From contig JAJNAZ010000001.1 in NCBI GenBank assembly GCA_021155855.1, positions 124,001 through 188,000 on the forward strand: 64,000 nucleotides of DNA, given 5' to 3'. How positions within the stretch are numbered: position 1 is the first letter of the stretch; every line of letters starts with the position of its first letter. Positions 29,349 through 43,849 of the stretch are shown here, one piece after another. The position numbers and the translations under genes were made by a program. Below the pieces are notes generated by a model, which made no database searches, was not told the origin of the DNA, and worked only from the letters and a program-made list of their open reading frames with translations. The DNA comes from Solirubrobacterales bacterium. Lineage in GTDB: Bacteria; Actinomycetota; Thermoleophilia; Solirubrobacterales; 70-9.

Positions 29349-30302
29349 TTGAGCGGCCGCCCGAGAACCCCCGCGAGGACGATCCTGCTCGCTGCCTCCG
29401 CGATCGTGCTCGCGCTCGCGTGGGCGGGGCCGGCGCATGCGATTTCGATCGCGCCCGAGGAGGCGCATTCGCCCAACGCAGACGCGATCAACACCTCCTA
29501 CTGGGTGATGATCGTCGTCGTCATCGCGGTCATCGTCGTCGTCAACGCGGCGCTGATCGCGGCGGTGCTGCGGTTCCGCGAGCGGCGCGGTCGGGAGCCG
29601 TCCCGGTTCGCCGCCGGACGGGGCGCGCTGAGGCCGGTGGTCGGGTCGCTGTCGGTGCTCGCGCTGGTGATCTTCGTCTACGGCGTGATCATGACCGAGG
29701 ACGTGCGCGAGATCGAGCCGTCGGGGCCGAACGGCCTCGGAGCCGCGCAGACCGCCCAGGTCGGGATCAAGGGGTTGCCGGCGTCGGCCGCGATCGAGGG
29801 CTCGGAATCGGCGACCGGCGAGGAGCCGGTCACCGGCGCCGAACCGACCGAGACGAGCCCGCTCCAGATCGACGCGATCGCCCAGCAGTGGCTGTGGCGG
29901 TTCGAGTATCCGGGTGGCCAACCGGGGCAGCGGACCTTCTCCTACGGGGAGCTGGTGGTGCCGGTCGACACGACCGTGATCCTCGACCTCACCTCGACCG
30001 ACGTGCTCCACAGCTGGTGGGTGCCGGCCCTCGGAGGCCAGGTGCAGGCGGCGTCCGGCGACGTCACCCGGACCTGGTTCAAGGCCGATGAGGAGGGTCG
30101 CTATGCCGGCCGTTCGACGGCCTTCTCGGGCACCGGCTACCCGGTGATGCGCTCCTGGGTCCGGGTCGTCAGCGTGCCCGAGTACCTGGACTACGTCGAG
30201 CAGCTCACCGCCGACTTGAGAGAGGCCCAGGGAATCGTCCAGCGGCGCCAAGCTGAGGAGGCCACGCCCGAGGCGGCGACCGAATCGGAGGGCGCCGAGT
30301 GA
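29349..30302 (+). CDS. Cytochrome oxidase subunit II homologue lacking the CuA site
   Basis: The protein has 317 residues. A signal/transmembrane helix (residues 11-31), two further membrane helices (53-75, 98-115) and a periplasmic cupredoxin domain are present. Aromatic patch residues QQWLWRFEYP and the first CuA His (LHSWWVP, His221) are kept. The main CuA loop, aligned without gaps to CTELCGLGHTTM of the canonical paralogue at 43079, reads STAFSGTGYPVM here. Both cysteines are Ser (256, 260), the Glu is Ala258, His is Tyr264, and only Met267 is kept. It cannot bind CuA. It overlaps the next gene by four bases. Confidence 0.92.
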   Translation: MSGRPRTPARTILLAASAIVLALAWAGPAHAISIAPEEAHSPNADAINTSYWVMIVVVIAVIVVVNAALIAAVLRFRERRGREPSRFAAGRGALRPVVGSLSVLALVIFVYGVIMTEDVREIEPSGPNGLGAAQTAQVGIKGLPASAAIEGSESATGEEPVTGAEPTETSPLQIDAIAQQWLWRFEYPGGQPGQRTFSYGELVVPVDTTVILDLTSTDVLHSWWVPALGGQVQAASGDVTRTWFKADEEGRYAGRSTAFSGTGYPVMRSWVRVVSVPEYLDYVEQLTADLREAQGIVQRRQAEEATPEAATESEGAE

Positions 30303-32095
30303 CGCCGCCGACCGCATCGCAGGTCCGGCCCGAGGTCGTCACGCGCGGCGTCCACGCCCCCGCCAAGCCCTGGGTCGAGCGCGCGACCAGCGCCGATCAC
30401 AAGGCGGTCGGGTTGCTCTACATCGCCACCTCGCTCTCCTTTTTGTCCTTGGCCGCGGTCGAGTTCGCGCTCCTGCGCCTGCAGCTGATCGTTCCCGAGA
30501 ACTCGCTGATCCAGCCTGAGATCTTCAACCGGCTGCTCTCGACCGCGCCGGTGACGCTGGTCGTCTTGGCGGCGATCCCGCTCGCGCTCGGGCTGATCGG
30601 CTACATCGTCCCGCTTCAAATCGGCGCCCGTTCGGTCGCCTTCCCGCGGCTCAACCAGCTCTCGTACTGGCTCTATCTGGTCGGCGGCGTGACCATCTAC
30701 GCGAGCTTCCTCTACACGGCGCCGGAGACCGGCACGATCTCCCTCCCGCCGCTCTCGGACGCGGTGTTCGCACCGACCAACGGCACCGACTCGTGGATCG
30801 CCGGCACCGCCCTGGCGACGCTCGGGTTCGTCTGCTTCGCGATCAACCTCGTCGTCACCCTGAACCGGCTCCGCGCCCCGGGGGTCGCCTGGCGGCGGAT
30901 GCCGCTGTTCGCCTGGGCCGCCACGGTGATCGGCTGGCTGCTGGTGGTGATCGGTCCGGTGATGATCGCCGCCCTGACGATGCTGGAGATCGATCGCCAC
31001 TTCGACGGGGTCTTCTTCGATCCCGGCGAGGGCGGCGCGCCGCTGCTTTACGAGCACCTCGCCTACATCTACTTCACCGGCGCCTATCTGATCGTCTTCT
31101 TGGCCGCCGCGGGCGCGATCTCCGAGATCCTCCCCACCTTCGCCCGCAAGCCGGTCTTCAGCCACCGCGCGGTCGCGGCATCGTTCGTCGCCATCGGCAT
31201 CCTCGGACCGCTCGCCTGGATGCAGAACATGTACGAGGCGCCGCTCAACGAGGGTTGGACGATCATGGCGATGGCGTTCGCGCTCGCCCTGGTGGTCCCG
31301 GTCGGCGTCCTCCTCTACGTCTGGATCGCGACGATCTGGGGCGGAACACTGGACCTGCGGGCGGCAACTTGGTACGCGCTGGGCGCGATCTCGATTATGG
31401 CCTGCGGGCTCGCCGGAGAGCTCAGCTACTCTGTGGTCCCGGTCGGCTGGCTGCTCGACGACACCACGGCGAGCCAGGGCAGCACGCTCTACGTGCTCGT
31501 CGGCGGGGCCGTGATCGGCGGCTTCGCCGCGCTCCACTACTGGTTCCCCAAGGTCTGCGGCCGGCTGCTCGGCGAGGGTCTCGGCAAGGCGGCGCTGGCG
31601 TTGATGTTCATCGGCATCAACCTCTACGTCCTGATGATGTTCATGGCCGGGCTCGAGGGCCAGCCGGTGGACGTCTTTCAGTACTTCGAGGGGACGGGCG
31701 TCGACGGCTACAACCTGGTCGCCTCGCTCGCCGCCTTCTTGCTCGTGGGCGGCATCCTGCTCGAGCTCGGTAACGCCGCCTACAGCTGGAACAACGGGCT
31801 TCGCGCCCGCGGGCACGACCCGTGGCGCGGCGCGACCCTCGAGTGGTTCGCGCTCTCCCCGCCGCCGCCGCACAACTTCGACGCGGTGCCCGACGTCCGC
31901 AGCACCGAGCCCATGCACGATATCCGCGAGTCGATCCGTAGGCGGACGGAGGCCTTCGTCGCACCCGCGGCGCTCGAGCGGCCTCCCAGCCCGGCCCCGA
32001 GGCCCGCGGAACCGGTGCCCGCGACCGCGGAGACCTCCGCGTCCGAGACGACGGATCCCGATGCGGCCGACGGCGGAGGCTCCTCGGTAGCCTGA
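30299..32095 (+). CDS. Heme-copper oxidase subunit I homologue lacking all heme and CuB ligands
   Basis: The protein has 598 residues with the twelve-helix scaffold of subunit I, alignable without gaps around each site to the canonical CtaD at 41111. Ligand positions are all changed. Low-spin heme His (THA) is Ala83 (STAP), CuB His and cross-linked Tyr (SHPAVY) are Thr260 and Leu264, the CuB HH pair is Gln309-Asn310, and the two hemes' AHIHF is Ser395/Leu397. The K-channel Lys is Leu338. Non-ligand landmarks remain (AFPRLNQLSYW, ISEILPTFARKPVF, LHYWFPKVCGR). It has a Pro/Ala-rich tail of about 60 residues. A redox-inactive membrane protein is inferred. Confidence 0.93.
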   Translation: MTPPTASQVRPEVVTRGVHAPAKPWVERATSADHKAVGLLYIATSLSFLSLAAVEFALLRLQLIVPENSLIQPEIFNRLLSTAPVTLVVLAAIPLALGLIGYIVPLQIGARSVAFPRLNQLSYWLYLVGGVTIYASFLYTAPETGTISLPPLSDAVFAPTNGTDSWIAGTALATLGFVCFAINLVVTLNRLRAPGVAWRRMPLFAWAATVIGWLLVVIGPVMIAALTMLEIDRHFDGVFFDPGEGGAPLLYEHLAYIYFTGAYLIVFLAAAGAISEILPTFARKPVFSHRAVAASFVAIGILGPLAWMQNMYEAPLNEGWTIMAMAFALALVVPVGVLLYVWIATIWGGTLDLRAATWYALGAISIMACGLAGELSYSVVPVGWLLDDTTASQGSTLYVLVGGAVIGGFAALHYWFPKVCGRLLGEGLGKAALALMFIGINLYVLMMFMAGLEGQPVDVFQYFEGTGVDGYNLVASLAAFLLVGGILLELGNAAYSWNNGLRARGHDPWRGATLEWFALSPPPPHNFDAVPDVRSTEPMHDIRESIRRRTEAFVAPAALERPPSPAPRPAEPVPATAETSASETTDPDAADGGGSSVA

Positions 32096-32100
32096 CCGGC

Positions 32101-33132
32101 ATGCGTGATCTCGCCGCTCGTGGCGATGGGGACGAGCTGGCGCGCTTTCGCCGCCTCCTCACCCTGACCATCGCCGCCACCCTTGTGCTGATCCTGATCG
32201 GCGGGATCGTCCGCGTCAGCGACTCCGGCCTCGGTTGCGGTCCGGAGGGCAGCGGCACGCACGGCTGGCCATTGTGCGAGGGCGGCGTCCTGCCGGCCGA
32301 CTCGGCGGAGTCGACGATCGAGTTCAGCCATCGGGTCGCGGCCGCGGTCGTCGGCGTGCTGATCGTGTTCGCCGTCTGGCTGGCGTTCCGCCGGCTGCGC
32401 GTCCATCGGTGGATCGTCCGCGGCTCGGTCGGCGCCGGGCTACTGGTGCTCGCCCAAGCCGGCCTCGGCGGGCTCACCGTCGAGCAGGGTCTCGAGGAAG
32501 AACTCGTCGCCGCCCACCTCGGGCTGGCGATGCTGTTGCTGGGGCTGTTGATCGCGCTCCGCCGGGCCGCAGACCCGCAGGCGGTGGCGCTGCGGCCGGA
32601 GAGCATGGGCGGGCTCGGAGTCGCGACCGTGGTCGCCGCGGTGCTCGTGCTGGCGACGATCGTTGCCGGTGGCTACGTCGCCGGCACCGAGAGGGAGGGC
32701 ACGCCCGGCGAGCCGGTCGTCGGCCAGGCGCACGTGGCCTGCGGGACCGGCTACAGCGCCGATACCTTCCCCGCCTGTAACGAGCAGTTCCCGGGGTTCG
32801 GTCAGAGCCGGCTCGCCGACATCCAGCTCGTCCATCGCACGCTCATGTACCTGGCGGCGCTCGCCGTGCTCGCGATGGCGGCGATCGCCCTCGTGCGCCG
32901 CGCCCCCAGCCGTGCCTTCGGCGCCGCCGCGCTGCTGCTGGTGGCCCAGATCGGGCTCGGGATCCTCAACGTCTGGGCGGGCAAGCACGCCGGCCTGATC
33001 CTCGGACACCTGGCGCTCGGCACGGTCCTATGGAGCACCGTCGTCTACGCTGGCGCGACGCTGCTGCCTGCCTCAGAACCCGCAGGTGAGCGGGTTCGCC
33101 GCCGGTCGGTCAGAGGAGCCGTCACCGCCTAG
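32101..33132 (+). CDS. ctaA: Heme A synthase
   Basis: The protein has 343 residues and eight transmembrane helices in two halves, Cox15/CtaA family. It oxidises the methyl group of heme O to the formyl of heme A. Heme-ligand histidines are visible in EFSHRVAA (His77), VAAHLGLAM (His139), LVHRTLMY and LGHLALGT. Cysteine pairs occur in both periplasmic loops (near 46/59, and between the repeats). It follows the ligand-less subunit I by five bases, with a TAGCCT box before the ATG. Confidence 0.93.
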   Translation: MRDLAARGDGDELARFRRLLTLTIAATLVLILIGGIVRVSDSGLGCGPEGSGTHGWPLCEGGVLPADSAESTIEFSHRVAAAVVGVLIVFAVWLAFRRLRVHRWIVRGSVGAGLLVLAQAGLGGLTVEQGLEEELVAAHLGLAMLLLGLLIALRRAADPQAVALRPESMGGLGVATVVAAVLVLATIVAGGYVAGTEREGTPGEPVVGQAHVACGTGYSADTFPACNEQFPGFGQSRLADIQLVHRTLMYLAALAVLAMAAIALVRRAPSRAFGAAALLLVAQIGLGILNVWAGKHAGLILGHLALGTVLWSTVVYAGATLLPASEPAGERVRRRSVRGAVTA

Positions 33133-33135
33133 ACG

Positions 33136-34098
33136 ATGGAGAGCGCGACAACAACCCGACGCCCCGGCCGCGCCGGCCGCCTCGATCGCGACCTCGCCGG
33201 CGCCCTCGAGGTCGGCGGACGTTCCCGAGAACGCCCGCTCCTGGGGACGGTGCGCGACTACATCGCGCTGACCAAGCCGCGCATCATCTCGCTGCTGTTG
33301 CTGACCACGGTGGCGACGATGATCGTCGCCGATCCCGCCGGCCCGGCGCTCGATGCCGTGCTCTGGACGATGCTCGGCGGCTACCTGGCCGCGGGCGGCG
33401 CCGGGGCGATCAACCACTATCTCGATCGCGAACGCGATGCCCGCATGGCCCGTACCCGCGGCCGGCCGTTGGTCTCGGGGCGGATCGAGCCCTGGCACGG
33501 GCTCGTCTTCGGGATCTTGCTCGGTGCGCTGGCGACGATCCAGCTCGCGCTCACCGTCAACCCGCTCTCGGCGGCGCTGGCACTCGCCGGGCTGCTCGGC
33601 TACGTCCTCGTCTACACCGTGTGGCTGAAGCCGCTGACGCCGCAGAACATCGTCATCGGCGGGGCCGCCGGCGCCGTCCCGCCGCTCGTCGGCTGGGCGG
33701 CGGCGACCGGCGGGTTGGCCGTCGACGCGCTGTATCCGTTCGGGATCGTTTTCCTCTGGACGCCGCCCCATTTCTGGGCGCTTTCGCTGCTGATCAAGGA
33801 CGACTACGCCCGCACCGGGGTGCCGATGCTGCCAGTGGTCAAGGGCGAGGCGGCGACCCGCCGCCAGATCCTCGCCTACACCCTGGTCCTCGTCGCCTTC
33901 ACCCTGCTCCCGGTGGCGACCGGCTTTTTCGGCGCGATCTATCTCGTCGCCGCCCTCGTCCTCGGCGGGGCTTTCACGGCGCTCGCGCTTCGCCTGCTGC
34001 GCTCGCCATCGCGACCCGCCGCGCTGCGCCTCTACCTCGCCTCGCTCGCCTACCTCGCCCTGCTCTTCTGCGCGATGGCCGCGGACCGGGTCATCTGA
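33136..34098 (+). CDS. ctaB: Protoheme IX farnesyltransferase (heme O synthase)
   Basis: The protein has 320 residues of the UbiA prenyltransferase superfamily. The first Asp-rich motif lies in the segment NHYLDRERDARMARTRGRPL and the second in LKPLTPQNIVIGGAAGAVPP, with about nine membrane helices. It adds farnesyl to protoheme, giving heme O for CtaA. It starts three bases after ctaA, so the two steps of heme A synthesis are co-expressed. The N-terminal 40 residues are basic and variable. Confidence 0.94.
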   Translation: MESATTTRRPGRAGRLDRDLAGALEVGGRSRERPLLGTVRDYIALTKPRIISLLLLTTVATMIVADPAGPALDAVLWTMLGGYLAAGGAGAINHYLDRERDARMARTRGRPLVSGRIEPWHGLVFGILLGALATIQLALTVNPLSAALALAGLLGYVLVYTVWLKPLTPQNIVIGGAAGAVPPLVGWAAATGGLAVDALYPFGIVFLWTPPHFWALSLLIKDDYARTGVPMLPVVKGEAATRRQILAYTLVLVAFTLLPVATGFFGAIYLVAALVLGGAFTALALRLLRSPSRPAALRLYLASLAYLALLFCAMAADRVI

Positions 34099-34111
34099 TA
34101 GAACCGGCGTC

Positions 34112-34222
34112 GTGGATCGCAAGCGAGCGGCGAGCAACATCGGGGCGGGGCTGCTTGCGGCGTCGGTCGCGTTGGGCGTCTTCGGGCTCTGCTTCTTCGT
34201 CGCGATCGTCTACATCGGCTGA
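34112..34222 (+). CDS. 36-residue single-helix membrane peptide
   Basis: GTG 34112 reads MDRKRAASNIGAGLLAASVA and then a hydrophobic helix (FGLCFFVAIVYIG) to a TGA that overlaps the next ATG (ATGA). A short positive N-terminus and one membrane span are the pattern of small oxidase or assembly subunits. It is placed 13 bases after ctaB. No family is recognised, but the tight coupling on both sides supports a real gene. Confidence 0.6.
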   Translation: MDRKRAASNIGAGLLAASVALGVFGLCFFVAIVYIG

Positions 34223-34485
34223 TGGCGGAGGACCGCCGCGATGGCGAGCCGACCGAGCTCCTCTATTTGCCGGCCCCCTCCTGGCAGCCGGCGCTGCTCG
34301 CCGCCGGCCTCGCCGGGGTGGTGGTCTCGTTGTTCACCTGGTGGCCCTACGGCGTCGTCGGCGCCGTCGTCGCCGTGGTCGCGCTGTTGGCCTGGATCCG
34401 CGACGCGCGCCGGGACTACTCCCGCCTGCCGCGCAACCAGCGGCTCACCTCGGCCGTGATCCCAGCGGTGCCGCTGAAGAGATAA
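34222..34485 (+). CDS. Small two-helix membrane protein (oxidase subunit IV-like position)
   Basis: The protein has 87 residues. Two adjacent membrane helices (PALLAAGLAGVVVSLFTWWP and VVGAVVAVVALLAWI) are followed by a basic tail RDARRDYSRLPRNQRL. Actinobacterial cytochrome oxidases carry small subunit IV proteins of this general form, but sequence identity to CtaF is not evident. It is the last gene of the operon that starts at 29349 and overlaps the 36-residue gene by one base. Confidence 0.75.
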   Translation: MAEDRRDGEPTELLYLPAPSWQPALLAAGLAGVVVSLFTWWPYGVVGAVVAVVALLAWIRDARRDYSRLPRNQRLTSAVIPAVPLKR

Positions 34486-34608: not shown

Positions 34609-35019
34609 TTACTCGGTTTCCGGGGGGGTCATGCCGGAGGTCGCGCCCTCGGAGGTCCAGACGCGCACGATGTCGCGCATCGAGAGCACGCCGACCAGCT
34701 CACCGCGCTCGACCACGACCAGGTGGCGGATCTGGCGGCGGGCCATCTCGACCGCGGCGCGCTCGAGGCTCCAGTCGGGCGCGGCGGCGATCACGGTGTC
34801 GCTCATGTGATCGCCGACGCGCTCGGCGTCGGGGTCCTCGCCGCGCCCGAGCGAGTTGAGGACGTCGCGCTCGGAGACGACGCGCGGCCCCGGCGTCTCC
34901 TCGTCGAGGACCACCGCGGCGCCGACGCCCTTCTCGGTCATCCGCTTCGCGGCCTCGCGCAAACTGTGCCCAGGCCCGACCGTAAGCACGACGCTGGACA
35001 TCCCCTCACGAACTTCCAT
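34609..35019 (-). CDS. CBS-domain-pair protein
   Basis: The protein has 136 residues consisting only of two CBS domains. The first spans residues 10-60 (SLREAAKRMTEKGVGAAVVL ... RVVSERDVL), the second 70-122 (IRHLVVVERGELVGVLSMRD). Stand-alone CBS pairs bind adenine nucleotides (AMP, ATP, sometimes S-adenosylmethionine or c-di-AMP) and usually regulate a partner. It is convergent with the oxidase-like operon. The 120 bases between contain no recognisable gene. Confidence 0.92.
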   Translation of the reverse strand: MEVREGMSSVVLTVGPGHSLREAAKRMTEKGVGAAVVLDEETPGPRVVSERDVLNSLGRGEDPDAERVGDHMSDTVIAAAPDWSLERAAVEMARRQIRHLVVVERGELVGVLSMRDIVRVWTSEGATSGMTPPETE

Positions 35020-35127: not shown

Positions 35128-35817
35128 GTGCCGAGACCCCCTCTCCGCAGGCAGGGACGCGCCCGCTTGAGCGTGCTCGCGCTGGCCCTCGGCGGGTTCG
35201 TGTTCATGACCGGCTGCGACGCCTCCGAGGACTCCGACCTCGAGCGCGGCCGCGCCCTGTTCCTGCAGAACTGCGGCACCTGCCACACGCTCGCGGAGGC
35301 CGGGTCGAGCGCCGACGTCGGCCCCGACCTCGACGCCTCCTTCGCCCAGGCGCGGGCTGACGGCATGGACTCCGACACGGTCGAGGGGGTCGTCCAGAAG
35401 CAGATCTCCAATCCGCGCGAGGTCGAGGAGGGCGCCCCCAACTACAGCTCGATCTTCATGCCCGCCGACCTCGTCGTCGGCCAGGACGCCGAGGACGTCG
35501 CCGCCTACGTCGCCAGCGTCGCCGGCATCCCGGGCGCCAAGCCCCCCGAGCTGCCGCCCGATCAGCTGTTCACCGAGCGCTGCGGCAGCTGCCACGCGCT
35601 GCAGGCCGCCGGCACCTCGGGGACCACCGGTCCCGACCTCGACGAGACGCTCGCCGGCAAGAACGCCAAGTACATCGAGCAGCAGATCGTCGACCCGAAC
35701 TCGCAGATCACGCAGGGCTTCGGCCCCGACGTGATGCCGCAGGACTTCGAGAGCTCGCTGACCCCGCAGGACCTGCAGGGCCTGGTCGACTACCTGCTCG
35801 AGAACGTCGGCAGTTAG
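35128..35817 (+). CDS. Diheme c-type cytochrome lipoprotein
   Basis: The protein has 229 residues. A signal peptide ending in lipobox MTGC (Cys30) suggests a lipid anchor outside the membrane. Two cytochrome c domains follow, with heme sites CGTCH (49-53) and CGSCH (152-156) and axial Met candidates in IFMPADL and DVMPQDF. It probably delivers electrons to the canonical oxidase encoded at 39559-43849. A TAGGAT box lies seven bases before the GTG. It overlaps the convergent Usp-like gene by four bases. Confidence 0.93.
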   Translation: MPRPPLRRQGRARLSVLALALGGFVFMTGCDASEDSDLERGRALFLQNCGTCHTLAEAGSSADVGPDLDASFAQARADGMDSDTVEGVVQKQISNPREVEEGAPNYSSIFMPADLVVGQDAEDVAAYVASVAGIPGAKPPELPPDQLFTERCGSCHALQAAGTSGTTGPDLDETLAGKNAKYIEQQIVDPNSQITQGFGPDVMPQDFESSLTPQDLQGLVDYLLENVGS

Positions 35818-36488
35818 CCGACGGGCCCGGCCGAAGCCCGGGTCGCCCCCTCGGCCTCAAGGTCCACCACCACGTGCGTCACCGGGAGCGGAACCTCGCG
35901 CTCGGCCCGTTCGACCACCCCGCGCTCGAGCCACCTCGAGCGCTCCGGCGGGTGGGTCGAGATCACCACCTCGTCGGCGGCGAACTCGCGCAACGCGTCC
36001 TCGATCGCGACGTTGGGGTCGTGGTGGTCTCCGACCTGCCCGCGAGCGCTGAGGCCGGCGCCGCGCATCGCCTCGAGTGAGCGCCCGAGCCGCTCGCGGG
36101 CCTCGGCGATCGCGCGATCGACGTCGTGGGCGAGGTGCTCGAGTCGCGATCCGGGCAGCGCCGGAACGACGACGAAGATCTCGCTCCCACGGCCCTCGCA
36201 ACGACTGCGGATCTCGTCGAGCAGGGCGCGACCGGCGACCGTCTGGTTGGCGACCACGAGCACCCGGTGGGCGTCGTCGCGTGCCTCCGCGACCGCGGCG
36301 GTGTGGGGCTCGGAGCCGCGCGAGCTGCGCCACAGAAGGCCGATCCCGACCCCGATCTCGAGCGCGAGCAGGATCGCGGCATAGACGGGCTCGGTGATCA
36401 GGCCGACCGCGATCACCGGCGCGGCCGCGATCCCGACGATGACGACGACGCGGAACATCTCGGCCTCGGAACGAAGCGGGTTGTGCAC
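35814..36488 (-). CDS. Membrane-anchored universal-stress-like protein
   Basis: The protein has 224 residues. Two N-terminal transmembrane helices (FRVVVIVGIAAAPVIAVGLI and YAAILLALEIGVGIGLLW) are joined to a cytoplasmic Usp/HUP-type alpha-beta domain. That domain contains HRVLVVANQTVAGRALLDEI, FVVVPALP and ADEVVISTHPPERSRWLERG. The last motif is shared with the Usp-like protein at 40185, so both oxidase flanks carry relatives. It may bind a nucleotide, but its role is unknown. Confidence 0.75.
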   Translation of the reverse strand: MHNPLRSEAEMFRVVVIVGIAAAPVIAVGLITEPVYAAILLALEIGVGIGLLWRSSRGSEPHTAAVAEARDDAHRVLVVANQTVAGRALLDEIRSRCEGRGSEIFVVVPALPGSRLEHLAHDVDRAIAEARERLGRSLEAMRGAGLSARGQVGDHHDPNVAIEDALREFAADEVVISTHPPERSRWLERGVVERAEREVPLPVTHVVVDLEAEGATRASAGPVG

Positions 36489-39558: not shown

Positions 39559-40185
39559 CTAGAGGATGTAGACGACCGTGAACACGATGATCCACATCAC
39601 GTCGACGAAGTGCCAGTAGATGCCCGGCACCTCGACGCCGAGATGGTCCTTTGCCTTGGGGCCGAAGTGGCCACGCCAGGCGCGGATGTTGGCGAAGCTG
39701 AGCAGGAGCAGCCCGACCAAGACGTGGGCGCCATGGAGGCCGGTGAGGCCGTAGAAGATCGAGCCGAAGGCGCCGTCGCGGCCGCTGAAGCCGATGTGGA
39801 TGTACTCGTTGATCTGGATGAAGAGGAAGGTCGAGCCGAGCAGCCAGGTGGTCATCAGCCCCATCTGCATGCCGCGGCGGTTGCCCTTCCGCGTCGCCTC
39901 GAGCGCCCAATGGACGGTGAAGCTGGACGAGATCAGGATCGCCGTGTTGACTCCGGCGACCGCGACCGGCAGCTCGAAACCCTCCGGGGGCCAGGGACCC
40001 TCGTTGGAGACCACGCGGAGGAAAAAGTAGGAGGCGAAGAACGCCCCGAACAGCATCGCCTCGGTGACGATGAACAGCAGGATGCCGAGGGTCTGGCGGT
40101 CGATGCGCGAGCTCTGATGAGCCTCCGGCGGGCCATGGTGCTCGTGCGGCTCTGCTTGCCCGACGGCTACGGAGGCGCTTTCCAT
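39559..40185 (-). CDS. ctaE: Cytochrome c oxidase subunit III
   Basis: The protein has 208 residues and five transmembrane helices, the short form usual in actinobacteria. Conserved parts are LGILLFIVTEAMLFGAFFAS, the segment GLTGLHGAHVLVGL, and the terminal HFVDVMWIIVFTVV. It stabilises the catalytic core and helps proton uptake. Its start overlaps the stop of the Usp-like gene by one base. The 3' end served as the integration site of the small islet downstream. Confidence 0.95.
   Translation of the reverse strand: MESASVAVGQAEPHEHHGPPEAHQSSRIDRQTLGILLFIVTEAMLFGAFFASYFFLRVVSNEGPWPPEGFELPVAVAGVNTAILISSSFTVHWALEATRKGNRRGMQMGLMTTWLLGSTFLFIQINEYIHIGFSGRDGAFGSIFYGLTGLHGAHVLVGLLLLSFANIRAWRGHFGPKAKDHLGVEVPGIYWHFVDVMWIIVFTVVYIL
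39568..39598. repeat. Right att-like repeat within ctaE 3' end
   Basis: This is the partner of 37541-37571. It encodes the C-terminal codons of the intact ctaE. Confidence 0.7.
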
Positions 40186-41114
40186 CAGGTTCTGACCCCG
40201 GCGCTCTCGGCGCTCGGCGCTCGCTGCTCAGTCCGCGACCCCGAGCTCGCTTCGTAGTGATTCACCGGCTTATCGGTGATCTCCCTGACCTTCTCCAGCA
40301 GGCCCTGCTCGAGCCACTTCGACTGCTCGCCGGCAAGCGTCGAGATGATGATGTCGTCGATCCGGTAGTGCTCGATCGCGTTCTCGATCGCCGCGAACGG
40401 CTCCGGGCTCATCGGCTGTCCGATCGCGTCGATCTCGGCGCGATAGAGCTCGGCGACCGTGCGTGCCAGGCGCTCGACCACCTCTTCGCGGCTGAGGTCC
40501 CCCGAGCGTGGGCAGATGATCGTGTAGCGGTGCGGCGTCTCGGCGGCGCGGGCCTTCAACGACTCGATCAGCTCGGGGCTGGCGATCGTCTGCGTGCCGA
40601 CCACCAGGGTATGGGTGACGTCCCAGCGCACCGCGTCGTCGTCGACGCGCACGGGTATGTGGGTGACCGGGATCTCGAACCGGTCCTTGGCCCACTCGAC
40701 AAGGTCGCGGCGCAAGAGGCCGAAGCGGGCCTCATAGAGGGACGAGAGCAGCACCTCGCGCGGGGCGAAGGCGCGCACGGCGTCGTCGAGCGCCAGCGAG
40801 GGCTCGGGATCCATGACCGCGCCCGAGGCCTCGATCCCGAACTCGGCCAGCACCGACTGGGTCACCTCGACTCGGCTCAGCGCCGCCTCCCGAATCTCGT
40901 CGCGGTCGACGATCTGGCCGACGACCGGCTGGTTCTGGGGCGCCGCAACCGCGACCGCATCGGCACCGGCGTCGACGCGCTCGCGAAGCGCCTCGAGCAG
41001 CCGGCGGCCGCCGGCGACCTCGTTGACGAAGGCGAGCACCGTGCCGCCGTCGCTCCAGTCGACGCTGGAGCGCGGGTCGTCGACCGGGTAGCTGGCGAGC
41101 TCTGCCTCGGTCAT
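40185..41114 (-). CDS. Tandem universal-stress-protein-like protein inside the oxidase operon
   Basis: The protein has 309 residues with two Usp/HUP-like halves. The first is VLAFVNEVAGGRRLLEALRE ... APREVLLSSLYEARFGLL, and the second is HTLVVGTQTIASPELIESLK ... DIIISTLAGEQSKWLEQGL. No membrane segment is seen. It overlaps ctaD by four bases and ctaE by one base, so it is translated with the oxidase. It may sense nucleotides or stress and tune oxidase level or activity (inference). Confidence 0.8.
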   Translation of the reverse strand: MTEAELASYPVDDPRSSVDWSDGGTVLAFVNEVAGGRRLLEALRERVDAGADAVAVAAPQNQPVVGQIVDRDEIREAALSRVEVTQSVLAEFGIEASGAVMDPEPSLALDDAVRAFAPREVLLSSLYEARFGLLRRDLVEWAKDRFEIPVTHIPVRVDDDAVRWDVTHTLVVGTQTIASPELIESLKARAAETPHRYTIICPRSGDLSREEVVERLARTVAELYRAEIDAIGQPMSPEPFAAIENAIEHYRIDDIIISTLAGEQSKWLEQGLLEKVREITDKPVNHYEASSGSRTEQRAPSAESAGVRT

Positions 41115-43057
41115 GGTCCACCTCGCTCGCCCGGCGACCCGCCGCCGCCACCGCCGGCGGCGCCGACCACCGCGGGCTCGGGCTTGCGCACCTCCGCCTC
41201 CTCACCGCCCATGATCGCGTGCCGGGCGCCGGGGACGCCGAACTCGTAGGGCCCGCCGACGACCCGCGGGATCTCGTCGAAGTTGAAGATCGGCGGGGGT
41301 GAGGAGACCTGCCACTCGATCGTCTTCGCTCGCCACGGGTTCGCGGTCGCTCGCGGGCCCCACTTCCAGGAGACGATCATGTTGTAGAGGAACACCAGCT
41401 GGGCGATCCCGAGCAGGAACGAGGAGATCGAGATCATCAGGTTCCAGTCGCCGAACTGGGCCGCGTAATCGGCCACCCGGCGGGGCATCCCCTCCATCCC
41501 GACCCAGTGCATGGGGATGAAGGTGCCGAGCATCCCGACCAGGGTGAGGTAGAAGTGCACCCGCCCGAGCTTCTCGTCGTACATCCGCCCGGTCATCTTC
41601 GGGAACCAGTGGTAGATGCCGGCGAAGATCGTGAACACCGAGCCGCCGAAGAGCACGAAATGGATGTGGGCGACGATGAAGTAGGTGTCCGACACGTGGA
41701 TGTCGATCGGCACCATGCCGAGCATCACGCCGGAGATCCCGCCGATCGTGAACGTGGTGACGAAGCCGAGCGCGAACAGCATTGCGGTCGATCTCAGGTG
41801 CAGGACGCTGTTGAACAGGGTCGCCAGCCAGGAGAAGATCTTGATCCCGGTGGGCACCGCGATCAGCAGGGTGGTGATCATCATCGGCACCCGCAGCCAG
41901 GCGAACATGCCGCTGACGAACATGTGGTGCGCCCAGACGGTGTAGGAGAGGACGACGATCCCGATCAGCGCCAGGGCCATCAGCCGGTAGCCGAAGATCG
42001 GCTTGCGGGCGTGGGTCGAGATGACCTCGGAGATGATCCCGAACCCGGGCAGCATCATGATGTAGACGGCCGGGTGCGAGTAGAACCAGAAGATGTGCTG
42101 GTAGCTGAGCACGTCGCCGCCGAACGCCGCCTGGAAGAAGTTGGTGTGCAGGACGCGGTCGAAGAGGACCATGAACTGGACCCCGGCGATGAACGGCGTC
42201 GCCGCGACGACCAGCAGCGAGGTCGAGAGGTTGGCCCAGACCAGCAGCGGCATGCGCCAAAAGGTCATCCCCGGCGCTCGCATGGTGACGATCGTGACCA
42301 GGAAGTTGAGCGCCGTGGCCACCGATGAGGCGCCGGCGAACTGCACCCCGAGGTTGAAGAACGACTGCCCCAGCGGCGCCCCGGTGGAGAGCGGCGCGTA
42401 GCCGGTCCAGCCGGCGTCGAAGGCGCCGCCGGGGACGAGGAAGCTGGAGAGGAAGAGGATGCCCGCGATCGGCAGCATCCAGAACGAGAGCGCGTTGAGG
42501 CGCGGGAAGGCCATGTCCGGCGCGCCGATCATCAGCGGCAGGACGTAGTTGGCGATCCCGGCGAACACCGGGATCACGAAGACGAAGATCATGATCGCGG
42601 CGTGGGTGGAGAAGAGCCCGTTGTAGACCCCGGGGTCGACGATCTGCGTCCCCGGCTGCGCGAGCTCGGCCCGGATCAGCATCGCGATCAGCCCACCGAC
42701 GAGGAAGAAGAAGAAGGTGGTGACGATGTACTGGATCCCGATCACCTTGTGATCGGTGTTGAACTTGAAGTAGTCGCGCCAGGACTTGGCCCCGTGCTGG
42801 GAATGGTCCTCTGGGATCGTCGGCCTGCCCGCTGCCCAGCGGAACCAGTAGTCGAACGCGCCGAGCCCGACCAGGAAGCCGAGCGGGCCGGTGATCGCGG
42901 GGACGACCAGGTGCGGGTAGCCGGTCTGCTCGGTCTGAAAGATCTCGAGCCCGGAGATCGCGCGCAGGGCGACGACGAGCCCGAACCCGAACGCCGAGCC
43001 GACTATGAACCCGAGCGCCCCGCGCGCCAGGCCTGGTTGCTTGATTGCCACTGCCAC
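41111..43057 (-). CDS. ctaD: Cytochrome c oxidase subunit I (canonical)
   Basis: The protein has 648 residues, A-type heme-copper oxidase. All ligands are present: FSTHAAIMIF (low-spin heme), WFYSHPAVYIMMLPG (CuB His and cross-linked Tyr), VWAHHMFVSG (CuB pair), and VAHIHFVLFGG (heme a and a3). The K-channel Lys is in GIKIFSWLAT. It has an unusual N-terminal extension of about 95 residues with two extra membrane segments before the core (DHKVIGIQYI) and a Gly-rich tail. It reduces O2 to water and pumps protons. Confidence 0.97.
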   Translation of the reverse strand: MAVAIKQPGLARGALGFIVGSAFGFGLVVALRAISGLEIFQTEQTGYPHLVVPAITGPLGFLVGLGAFDYWFRWAAGRPTIPEDHSQHGAKSWRDYFKFNTDHKVIGIQYIVTTFFFFLVGGLIAMLIRAELAQPGTQIVDPGVYNGLFSTHAAIMIFVFVIPVFAGIANYVLPLMIGAPDMAFPRLNALSFWMLPIAGILFLSSFLVPGGAFDAGWTGYAPLSTGAPLGQSFFNLGVQFAGASSVATALNFLVTIVTMRAPGMTFWRMPLLVWANLSTSLLVVAATPFIAGVQFMVLFDRVLHTNFFQAAFGGDVLSYQHIFWFYSHPAVYIMMLPGFGIISEVISTHARKPIFGYRLMALALIGIVVLSYTVWAHHMFVSGMFAWLRVPMMITTLLIAVPTGIKIFSWLATLFNSVLHLRSTAMLFALGFVTTFTIGGISGVMLGMVPIDIHVSDTYFIVAHIHFVLFGGSVFTIFAGIYHWFPKMTGRMYDEKLGRVHFYLTLVGMLGTFIPMHWVGMEGMPRRVADYAAQFGDWNLMISISSFLLGIAQLVFLYNMIVSWKWGPRATANPWRAKTIEWQVSSPPPIFNFDEIPRVVGGPYEFGVPGARHAIMGGEEAEVRKPEPAVVGAAGGGGGGSPGERGGP

Positions 43058-43078: not shown

Positions 43079-43849
43079 CTAGGTCCCGCCGGCGGCCGAG
43101 GATCCGCCGCCCGCCCCGGCCTCGGCCTGTGCCTGGTCGTCGAGCCACTGGTCGAACTCCTCCTGCGACTCGACCACTACCGTCGCCCGCATCGTCGTGT
43201 GCCCGAGGCCGCAGAGCTCGGTGCAGACGAGGCTGAAGGTGCCCTCCTCGTTCGGCGTGACCACGAACTCGTCGTCGATCTCGTCGCCGCCCTCGCCGGC
43301 CGGCACCAGGTCGCGCTTGATCCGCCACTCGGGCACCCAGAATGAGTGCACGACGTCGAGCGCCTCGAGCTGGACGTCGAGCTGGCGGTCGACCGGAACG
43401 TGCAGCTCGTCGGACCTCAGCCCGTCGGCCTCCGGGTACTCGAACGTCCACTTGAACTGCTGCGCGGTGACCTTCAGCGGCATCGCGTCGTCCGCCCTCG
43501 CCTCGATGTCGTCGAGGACGATCCACGAGTAGCCGGCGCCGAAGAGGACGATGATCGTCGGGATCACGGTCCAGGCGATTTCGAGCTTGGTGTTCCCGTG
43601 GATCGGCGCGCCGTCCGACTCGTCGCCGGGCCTGGCGCGGAACTTCCAGATCGCGTAGCCGAACATCACCATCACGATCGAGAAGACGAAGGTCGAGAGC
43701 ACGACCATCACGTCGAAGAGGGTGTCGATCGGCGGCGCCTCCTCGGAGGCCGCGTCGCCGAACCAGTCGAACTGCACCAGCACGACCGAGCCGACGACCG
43801 TGAGCGCCAGCATCGCGCCGATCAGACGTAGAAGCGTTGGCCGGTTCAC
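43079..43849 (-). CDS. ctaC: Cytochrome c oxidase subunit II (canonical)
   Basis: The protein has 256 residues. An N-terminal hydrophobic segment, a second membrane helix pair and a CuA domain are present: VVHSFWVPEWR (first His) and SLVCTELCGLGHTTMRA with both cysteines, Glu, His and Met. The aromatic patch QQFKWTFEYPEAD accepts electrons from cytochrome c. It starts the operon ctaC-ctaD-usp-ctaE, 21 bases before ctaD. No lipobox is seen. The C-terminus is Gly/Ala-rich. Confidence 0.96.
   Translation of the reverse strand: MNRPTLLRLIGAMLALTVVGSVVLVQFDWFGDAASEEAPPIDTLFDVMVVLSTFVFSIVMVMFGYAIWKFRARPGDESDGAPIHGNTKLEIAWTVIPTIIVLFGAGYSWIVLDDIEARADDAMPLKVTAQQFKWTFEYPEADGLRSDELHVPVDRQLDVQLEALDVVHSFWVPEWRIKRDLVPAGEGGDEIDDEFVVTPNEEGTFSLVCTELCGLGHTTMRATVVVESQEEFDQWLDDQAQAEAGAGGGSSAAGGT

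Follow-up and report, generated by a model that had tools for sequence, protein, structure and literature searches.

A pair of cytochrome oxidase subunits without cofactor ligands, maintained across a family of uncultured Solirubrobacterales

Why would a family of soil actinobacteria retain both core subunits of a cytochrome oxidase without a usable redox centre, where its sister families keep the working enzyme? The question is raised by a stretch of 64,000 nucleotides from a Solirubrobacterales bacterium (assembly GCA_021155855.1, contig JAJNAZ010000001.1, positions 124,001 to 188,000; hereafter the window, with position 1 as its first letter), which carries adjacent genes for homologues of oxidase subunits II and I (CtaC and CtaD) beside a competent A2-type oxidase. 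A first, sequence-only reading of the window had proposed that the pair has lost its cofactor ligands and forms a maintained, redox-inactive, oxidase-shaped complex, not a pseudogene; it suggested a tree of homologues, a count of genomes with the pair, dN/dS values and structure prediction as checks. We consider it near certain that the pair is both redox-dead and maintained. Sequence comparison shows it to descend from an A1-type oxidase. In the ancestor of the family, this enzyme lost both proton channels, its ligands for CuA, CuB and heme a3, and the greater part of the heme a site; since then it has been under purifying selection, with its predicted fold intact.

Cofactor sites of the two subunits

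Both reading frames are intact and are coupled by the four-base overlap GTGA (30299-30302), and homology is clear for both products (COX1, E = 2e-88 for subunit I; COX2, E = 1.6e-13 for subunit II). When subunit I is aligned with the canonical subunit I of the window (Table 1), no local gap falls at any metal site, and the replacements listed by the sequence-only reading are all in place: the six His ligands read A83, T260, Q309, N310, S395 and L397, the cross-linked Tyr is L264, and the K-channel Lys is L338. The proper comparator is the A1-type oxidase found at the same locus in sister families, not the A2-type gene of the window (YSHPAVYI), and further losses extend the list: the D-channel Asp is S112, the K-channel Thr is V335, the Glu that A1-type enzymes carry in transmembrane (TM) helix 6 is A262, and the Arg pair that contacts the propionates reads V457 and D458. 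In bovine numbering, the equivalents of Tyr244, Lys319, Asp91, Glu242, Thr316, Arg438 and Arg439 are gone from subunit I; the first five are retained in 0% of the ligand-less copies, and the two Arg are lost in every copy. Of 16 named functional positions, only 2 are preserved in 50% or more of the copies; among the other positions invariant in A1 enzymes, 108 of 174 are (P = 2e-4); the Mg-site positions, which aligned poorly, were not used. None of the six His of the superfamily remains in the window copy and at most one in each of 43 distinct relatives (43/43 orthologues of our main set), while all six are present in 50/50 distinct A1 genes and 35/35 distinct A2 genes, with no intermediate subunit I among these 43, 50 and 35 genes.

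The claim of missing ligands holds only in part for the CuA site of subunit II. The protein does read STAFSGTGYPVM, as had been reported, and both Cys are replaced (Ser256 and Ser260), as is one His (Tyr264), but His221 and Met267 of the same site are kept, in 40/40 relatives. A CuA centre draws on two Cys, two His, a Met and the backbone carbonyl of a Glu, a set that subunit II no longer provides; since both Cys are replaced, CuA formation is, to judge from these residues, impossible.

The heme a site varies within the family. Tyr and His occupy its two positions in 25 of 40 relatives, Ala and Leu in the window copy. The ligand His of this site (bovine 378) persists only where the partner position is Tyr (25/25), which makes a His/Tyr heme site possible in that subclade. 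The same unbroken pairing is what would be expected of a partly loaded oxidase, in which the larger subclade binds one heme through His and Tyr and the window lineage has lost it secondarily. We regard this explanation as very doubtful: Arg438 and Arg439 are lost everywhere, Tyr occurs with Ser in three relatives, and the window copy has neither ligand.

Origin, distribution and selection

Subunit I orthologues occur in 48 of 50 genomes of the window's uncultured Solirubrobacterales family, a count that includes one fragment at a contig edge, and none contains an internal stop. In a search of 299 genomes of the class, a ligand-less subunit I was found in nearly every sampled member of the family, with relatives including Solirubrobacterales bacteria 67-14 and 70-9, and subunit II matches lie directly upstream in most of the family genomes. 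Of the two genomes without subunit I, one is 54% complete; the other, G029, is near-complete, and CtaB and the LPG synthase orthologue are missing from it too, so that an assembly gap is likelier there than gene loss. Outside the family, where ligation status was judged only for matches fetched as sequence, the strongest matches in the 299 class genomes were fully ligated in every case read, as were the six that were read of nine non-family matches over threshold in 396 genomes of the phylum. Horizontal spread was therefore set aside, no ligand-less copy having been seen outside the family among the matches read.

The gene order around the pair is common to the family and to Solirubrobacteraceae and Thermoleophilaceae: TrxB, LPG synthase, PAP2, coxII, coxI, (ctaA), ctaB, a small TM protein, a CtaF-like protein and a CBS protein. 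In the two sister families, coxII-coxI encodes a fully ligated A1-type oxidase (HPEVYI, CxxxCxxxH), often followed by an A2-type oxidase. A tree of 65 proteins, built quickly and with long branches in places, groups the ligand-less genes in a single clade (support 100), nested among the A1 genes on an accelerated stem branch of 1.29 substitutions per site; identity within the clade falls to 40%, so that the tree speaks for one origin and a long diversification. From the shared gene order and the tree, the ligand-less pair is read as the positional orthologue of the ancestral working A1 oxidase, its cofactors having been lost once, and the reading as an extra paralogue was rejected on the same two grounds. 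Where a Solirubrobacterales genome encodes A1 and A2 oxidases together, it usually holds only one strong COX3, adjoining the A2 genes; the ancestral A1 pair was therefore probably without a COX3 of its own. A lost COX3 was also considered for the additional gene that the sister families have between PAP2 and coxII; by eye, this gene reads as enoyl-CoA hydratase-like. The position of ctaA also differs: in the subclade of the window it separates coxI from ctaB, while most of the family lacks it there and has a divergent CtaA-like gene (27-38%) after a diheme cytochrome c.

Selection on the pair was estimated from the ratio of nonsynonymous to synonymous substitution rates (dN/dS). Comparison with the other genome of the same genus gives a ratio of 0.40 for subunit I (dN 0.17, dS 0.43) and 0.45 for subunit II, as against 0.40 for CtaA, 0.37 for the CtaF-like gene and 0.24 for CtaB; these values are upper estimates, because dS saturates at 92% G+C at third codon positions (GC3), and the NG86 values for distant pairs, being inflated, were not used. 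The closest pairs give 0.04-0.53. Relatives with a ratio near 1 and frequent frameshifts had been named at the outset as what would refute the proposal; neither ratio is near 1. Under a neutral simulation run to the observed 73% identity, about 4 stops are expected, with a 2% chance of none. The pseudogene was rejected on the stop-free frames, the ratio of 0.40 and the simulation, and the proposal of a maintained complex is upheld by the single-origin clade, the 48 stop-free genomes, neighbour-like dN/dS and the predicted fold.

Two of our observations could be explained if the pair were a relic in slow decay, or a frame retained solely for the transcription and translation of ctaA-ctaB: over 26 genomes, the evolutionary rate of subunit I is 2.4 times that of the A2 subunit I, and its dN/dS lies above that of the catalytic oxidases. 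Its mean distance across these genomes (1.11) is close to that of the LPG synthase (1.14) and PAP2 (1.11). The presence of stop-free copies in 48 of 50 genomes, the family-specific invariant residues and a dN/dS like that of intact neighbours make such a relic highly improbable, and a frame kept for polarity alone, under which amino acids would not be conserved, was rejected on the stop-free frames, the neutral simulation and dN/dS.

Gained residues, locus and possible functions

The clade has also made gains. Near-invariant residues stand at the former CuB His-His pair (Gln309-Asn310) and at Leu371, Glu374 and Asp458, and the gains at former His, His, Gly and Arg positions are conserved at 95-100% across the clade; the Gln-Asn pair is present in 43/43 distinct copies of the main set and 39/40 of a second set, the exception reading R-N. 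Leu371 and Glu374 align with bovine Gly352 and Gly355, which in known structures lie against heme a3, and for that reason they look like plugs of the heme pocket. The best-kept element of subunit I is its cytoplasmic C-terminal tail, where 17 of the 28 residues invariant in A1 survive, compared with 35 of 133 in the TM helices (P = 7e-4); the helices themselves are conserved no better than the loops. Each subunit was modelled with AlphaFold2, and the oxidase fold is predicted to be retained in both. The subunit I model, built from 16 sequences and of low confidence at residues 458-466 and 521-533, has the full 12-helix fold (predicted TM-score, pTM, 0.80) and superposes on R. sphaeroides subunit I (3omi_A) with Z 45.6 and a root-mean-square deviation of 2.2 over 490 residues, while subunit II is modelled as a TM hairpin with a cupredoxin domain (pTM 0.65; Z 16 to bo3 subunit II). 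The features of the locus are listed in Table 1.

Table 1. Features of the ligand-less pair, its neighbours and the A2-type oxidase genes, in window coordinates.
Feature	Coordinates	Strand	Remarks
Ligand-less subunit II (pseudo-CtaC)	29349..30302	+	signal peptide, 2 TM helices, cupredoxin domain
Ligand-less subunit I (pseudo-CtaD)	30299..32095	+	12 TM helices
Subunit I, Gln309-to-Asp458 stretch	31223..31672	+	gains: Q309, N310, L371, E374 (former CuB/heme a3 site), D458 (former propionate Arg)
Conserved cytoplasmic C-tail of subunit I, residues 500-545	31796..31933	+	DPWxxxTLEWxxxSPPPxHNFDxxPDVRSxxPxxDIR
CtaA-like heme A synthase, next gene after subunit I	32101..33132	+	
CtaB heme O synthase	33136..34098	+	
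Small single-TM protein, 37 aa, conserved in locus	34109..34222	+	
Subunit IV (CtaF)-like two-TM protein	34222..34485	+	PF12270 E = 3e-4, under family cut-off
Two-CBS-domain protein and second Usp-like gene (by eye)	34609-35019, 35814-36488	-	
CtaE (COX3)	39559..40185	-	sole COX3 found in genome
309-aa gene between A2 coxA and COX3	40185-41114	-	no Pfam match over cut-off
Competent A2-type CtaD, all ligands present	41111..43057	-	working oxidase beside locus
CtaC of A2 oxidase	43079..43849	-	CuA motif intact

The two-CBS-domain and second Usp-like genes also adjoin the locus in relatives. The 309-aa gene, an uncharacterised part of the A2 operon, occurs in the family and also in Solirubrobacteraceae (31-41% identity); it resembles two tandem Usp-like repeats by eye and gave no convincing PDB match. 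Competent oxidases accompany the pair elsewhere in the family: 37 of the 38 further subunit I copies read from its genomes belong to the A2 type and carry every ligand, and the remaining one is A1-like and retains the six His. The window's genome also holds genes for a bc-type cytochrome b and a bd oxidase.

For the role of the pair, the sequence-only reading had floated a scaffold, a regulator, a channel or heme handling, each of which is still conjectural. The explanation we favour, to which we give an even chance, is that of a structural or assembly partner: a redox-dead pseudo-complex IV within a respiratory chain driven by the adjacent A2 oxidase. The pair would act as a module in the structure or assembly of the chain, perhaps as a scaffold, and would assemble with the CtaF-like and small TM subunits; its former active site is probably plugged by Gln309-Asn310, Leu371 and Glu374, which would let it fold without cofactors; its conserved tail would dock to the bc complex, the adjacent A2 oxidase or both; and oxygen reduction would be left to the A2 oxidase. 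Docking within the chain is suggested by the conserved tail and by the CtaF-like neighbour, whose gene is present beside ligand-less and A1 oxidases alike. In M. smegmatis, contacts between complexes III and IV are mediated by CtaE and CtaF (PMC8361435).

Several points weigh against this proposal. The CtaF-like match lies under the Pfam cut-off, the adjacency of CtaA and CtaB is inherited and uninformative on function, and the intramembrane polar residues Q309, N310 and E374 could, instead of acting as a plug, build a new site for a ligand or for transport. Nor do evolutionary rates single out a partner: across the 26 genomes the partial correlation of the pair with the A2 subunit I (r 0.37) is weak, and lower than that with a flanking lipid enzyme (0.73), and so gives no evidence of partnership.

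The polar residues are the ground of the main rival, in which Gln309, Asn310 and Glu374, with Asp458, bind or conduct a small ligand or ion and the complex works as a transporter, channel or membrane sensor. Their 95-100% conservation at former His, His, Gly and Arg positions fits such a repurposed pocket, and that of the Gln-Asn pair is higher than mere filling would require. Against this, neither proton channel survives, the TM helices are conserved no better than the loops, and buried Gln, Asn and Glu may merely satisfy one another in the place of the cofactor; we therefore hold this rival to be unlikely. We lend slightly more credence, though still not much, to the broader proposition that an oxidase fold was converted once, family-wide, into a cofactor-free complex with a new ligand- or ion-handling site (Gln309, Asn310, Glu374), going beyond a passive scaffold.

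A cofactor-delivery or assembly chaperone, which would hold nascent A2 subunits or pass heme O or A from CtaB and CtaA to the A2 oxidase, is rather improbable. The pair does stand directly before ctaA-ctaB with tight spacing in the window, His221 and Met267 of the CuA site are kept in all 40 copies, and the Tyr and His at the heme a positions of the 25 relatives form a pair known from the heme carrier HasA. Yet adjacency to ctaB is ancestral to the working A1 operon, most of the family has no ctaA adjoining the pair, every copy lacks the propionate Arg pair, and the window copy has Ala and Leu at the heme a positions. A role as heme carrier is made less likely by the inherited ctaB adjacency and the loss of the propionate Arg.

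Comparison with known oxidases and pseudoenzymes

The six His ligands of heme a, heme a3 and CuB define the heme-copper oxidase superfamily (PMC8361435), and a survey that built a classifier for it discarded sequences without them (PMC3084760). Subunit I of the window is homologous to the 12-TM subunit I of this superfamily and lacks the six His; it also lacks the D- and K-channel residues and the cross-linked Tyr of type A enzymes. With catalytic residues lost and both the predicted fold and selection kept, the pair is a pseudoenzyme derived from a heme-copper oxidase and, by the defining feature, not itself such an oxidase. Searches of open-licence papers for inactive or ligand-less heme-copper oxidases returned no description of such a pair.

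An energy machine thus seems to have been converted to another use. The pair separates the features of an oxidase that are selected for electron transfer from those selected for folding, assembly and contacts, and offers a natural experiment on what respiratory supercomplexes are for, a matter of debate. For metagenomes it carries a warning: the number of functional oxidases is overstated by gene counts and by COX1 and COX2 annotations.

Among known systems, the closest is the A1-type aa3 oxidase (CtaC-CtaD) of Solirubrobacteraceae and Thermoleophilaceae, which shares with the pair the locus, the 12-TM subunit I, the cupredoxin subunit II, the ctaB and CtaF-like neighbours and about 40-44% identity; the pair differs in lacking the six His (window copy), the Tyr, the proton channels, the propionate Arg and the CuA Cys. 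The quinol oxidases bo3 and aa3-600 (CyoA, QoxA) likewise have a subunit II without a CuA centre, but they retain all subunit I ligands, of which the window pair has none, and a quinol oxidase was rejected on that ground and on QoxB/CyoB scores far under the cut-off. In archaeal CydAA', the pseudo-half of a cytochrome bd-type oxidase has lost its heme ligands and is still maintained; that case belongs to another superfamily and sets a dead paralogue beside a live subunit in one complex, whereas in the pair described here neither core subunit is live, and the working oxidase is an enzyme of another type (A2). The core proteins of mitochondrial complex III are inactive homologues of processing peptidases that have become a structural part of the complex; theirs is a soluble protease fold, whereas in the pair the oxidase core itself is dead and a structural role is what we propose for it.
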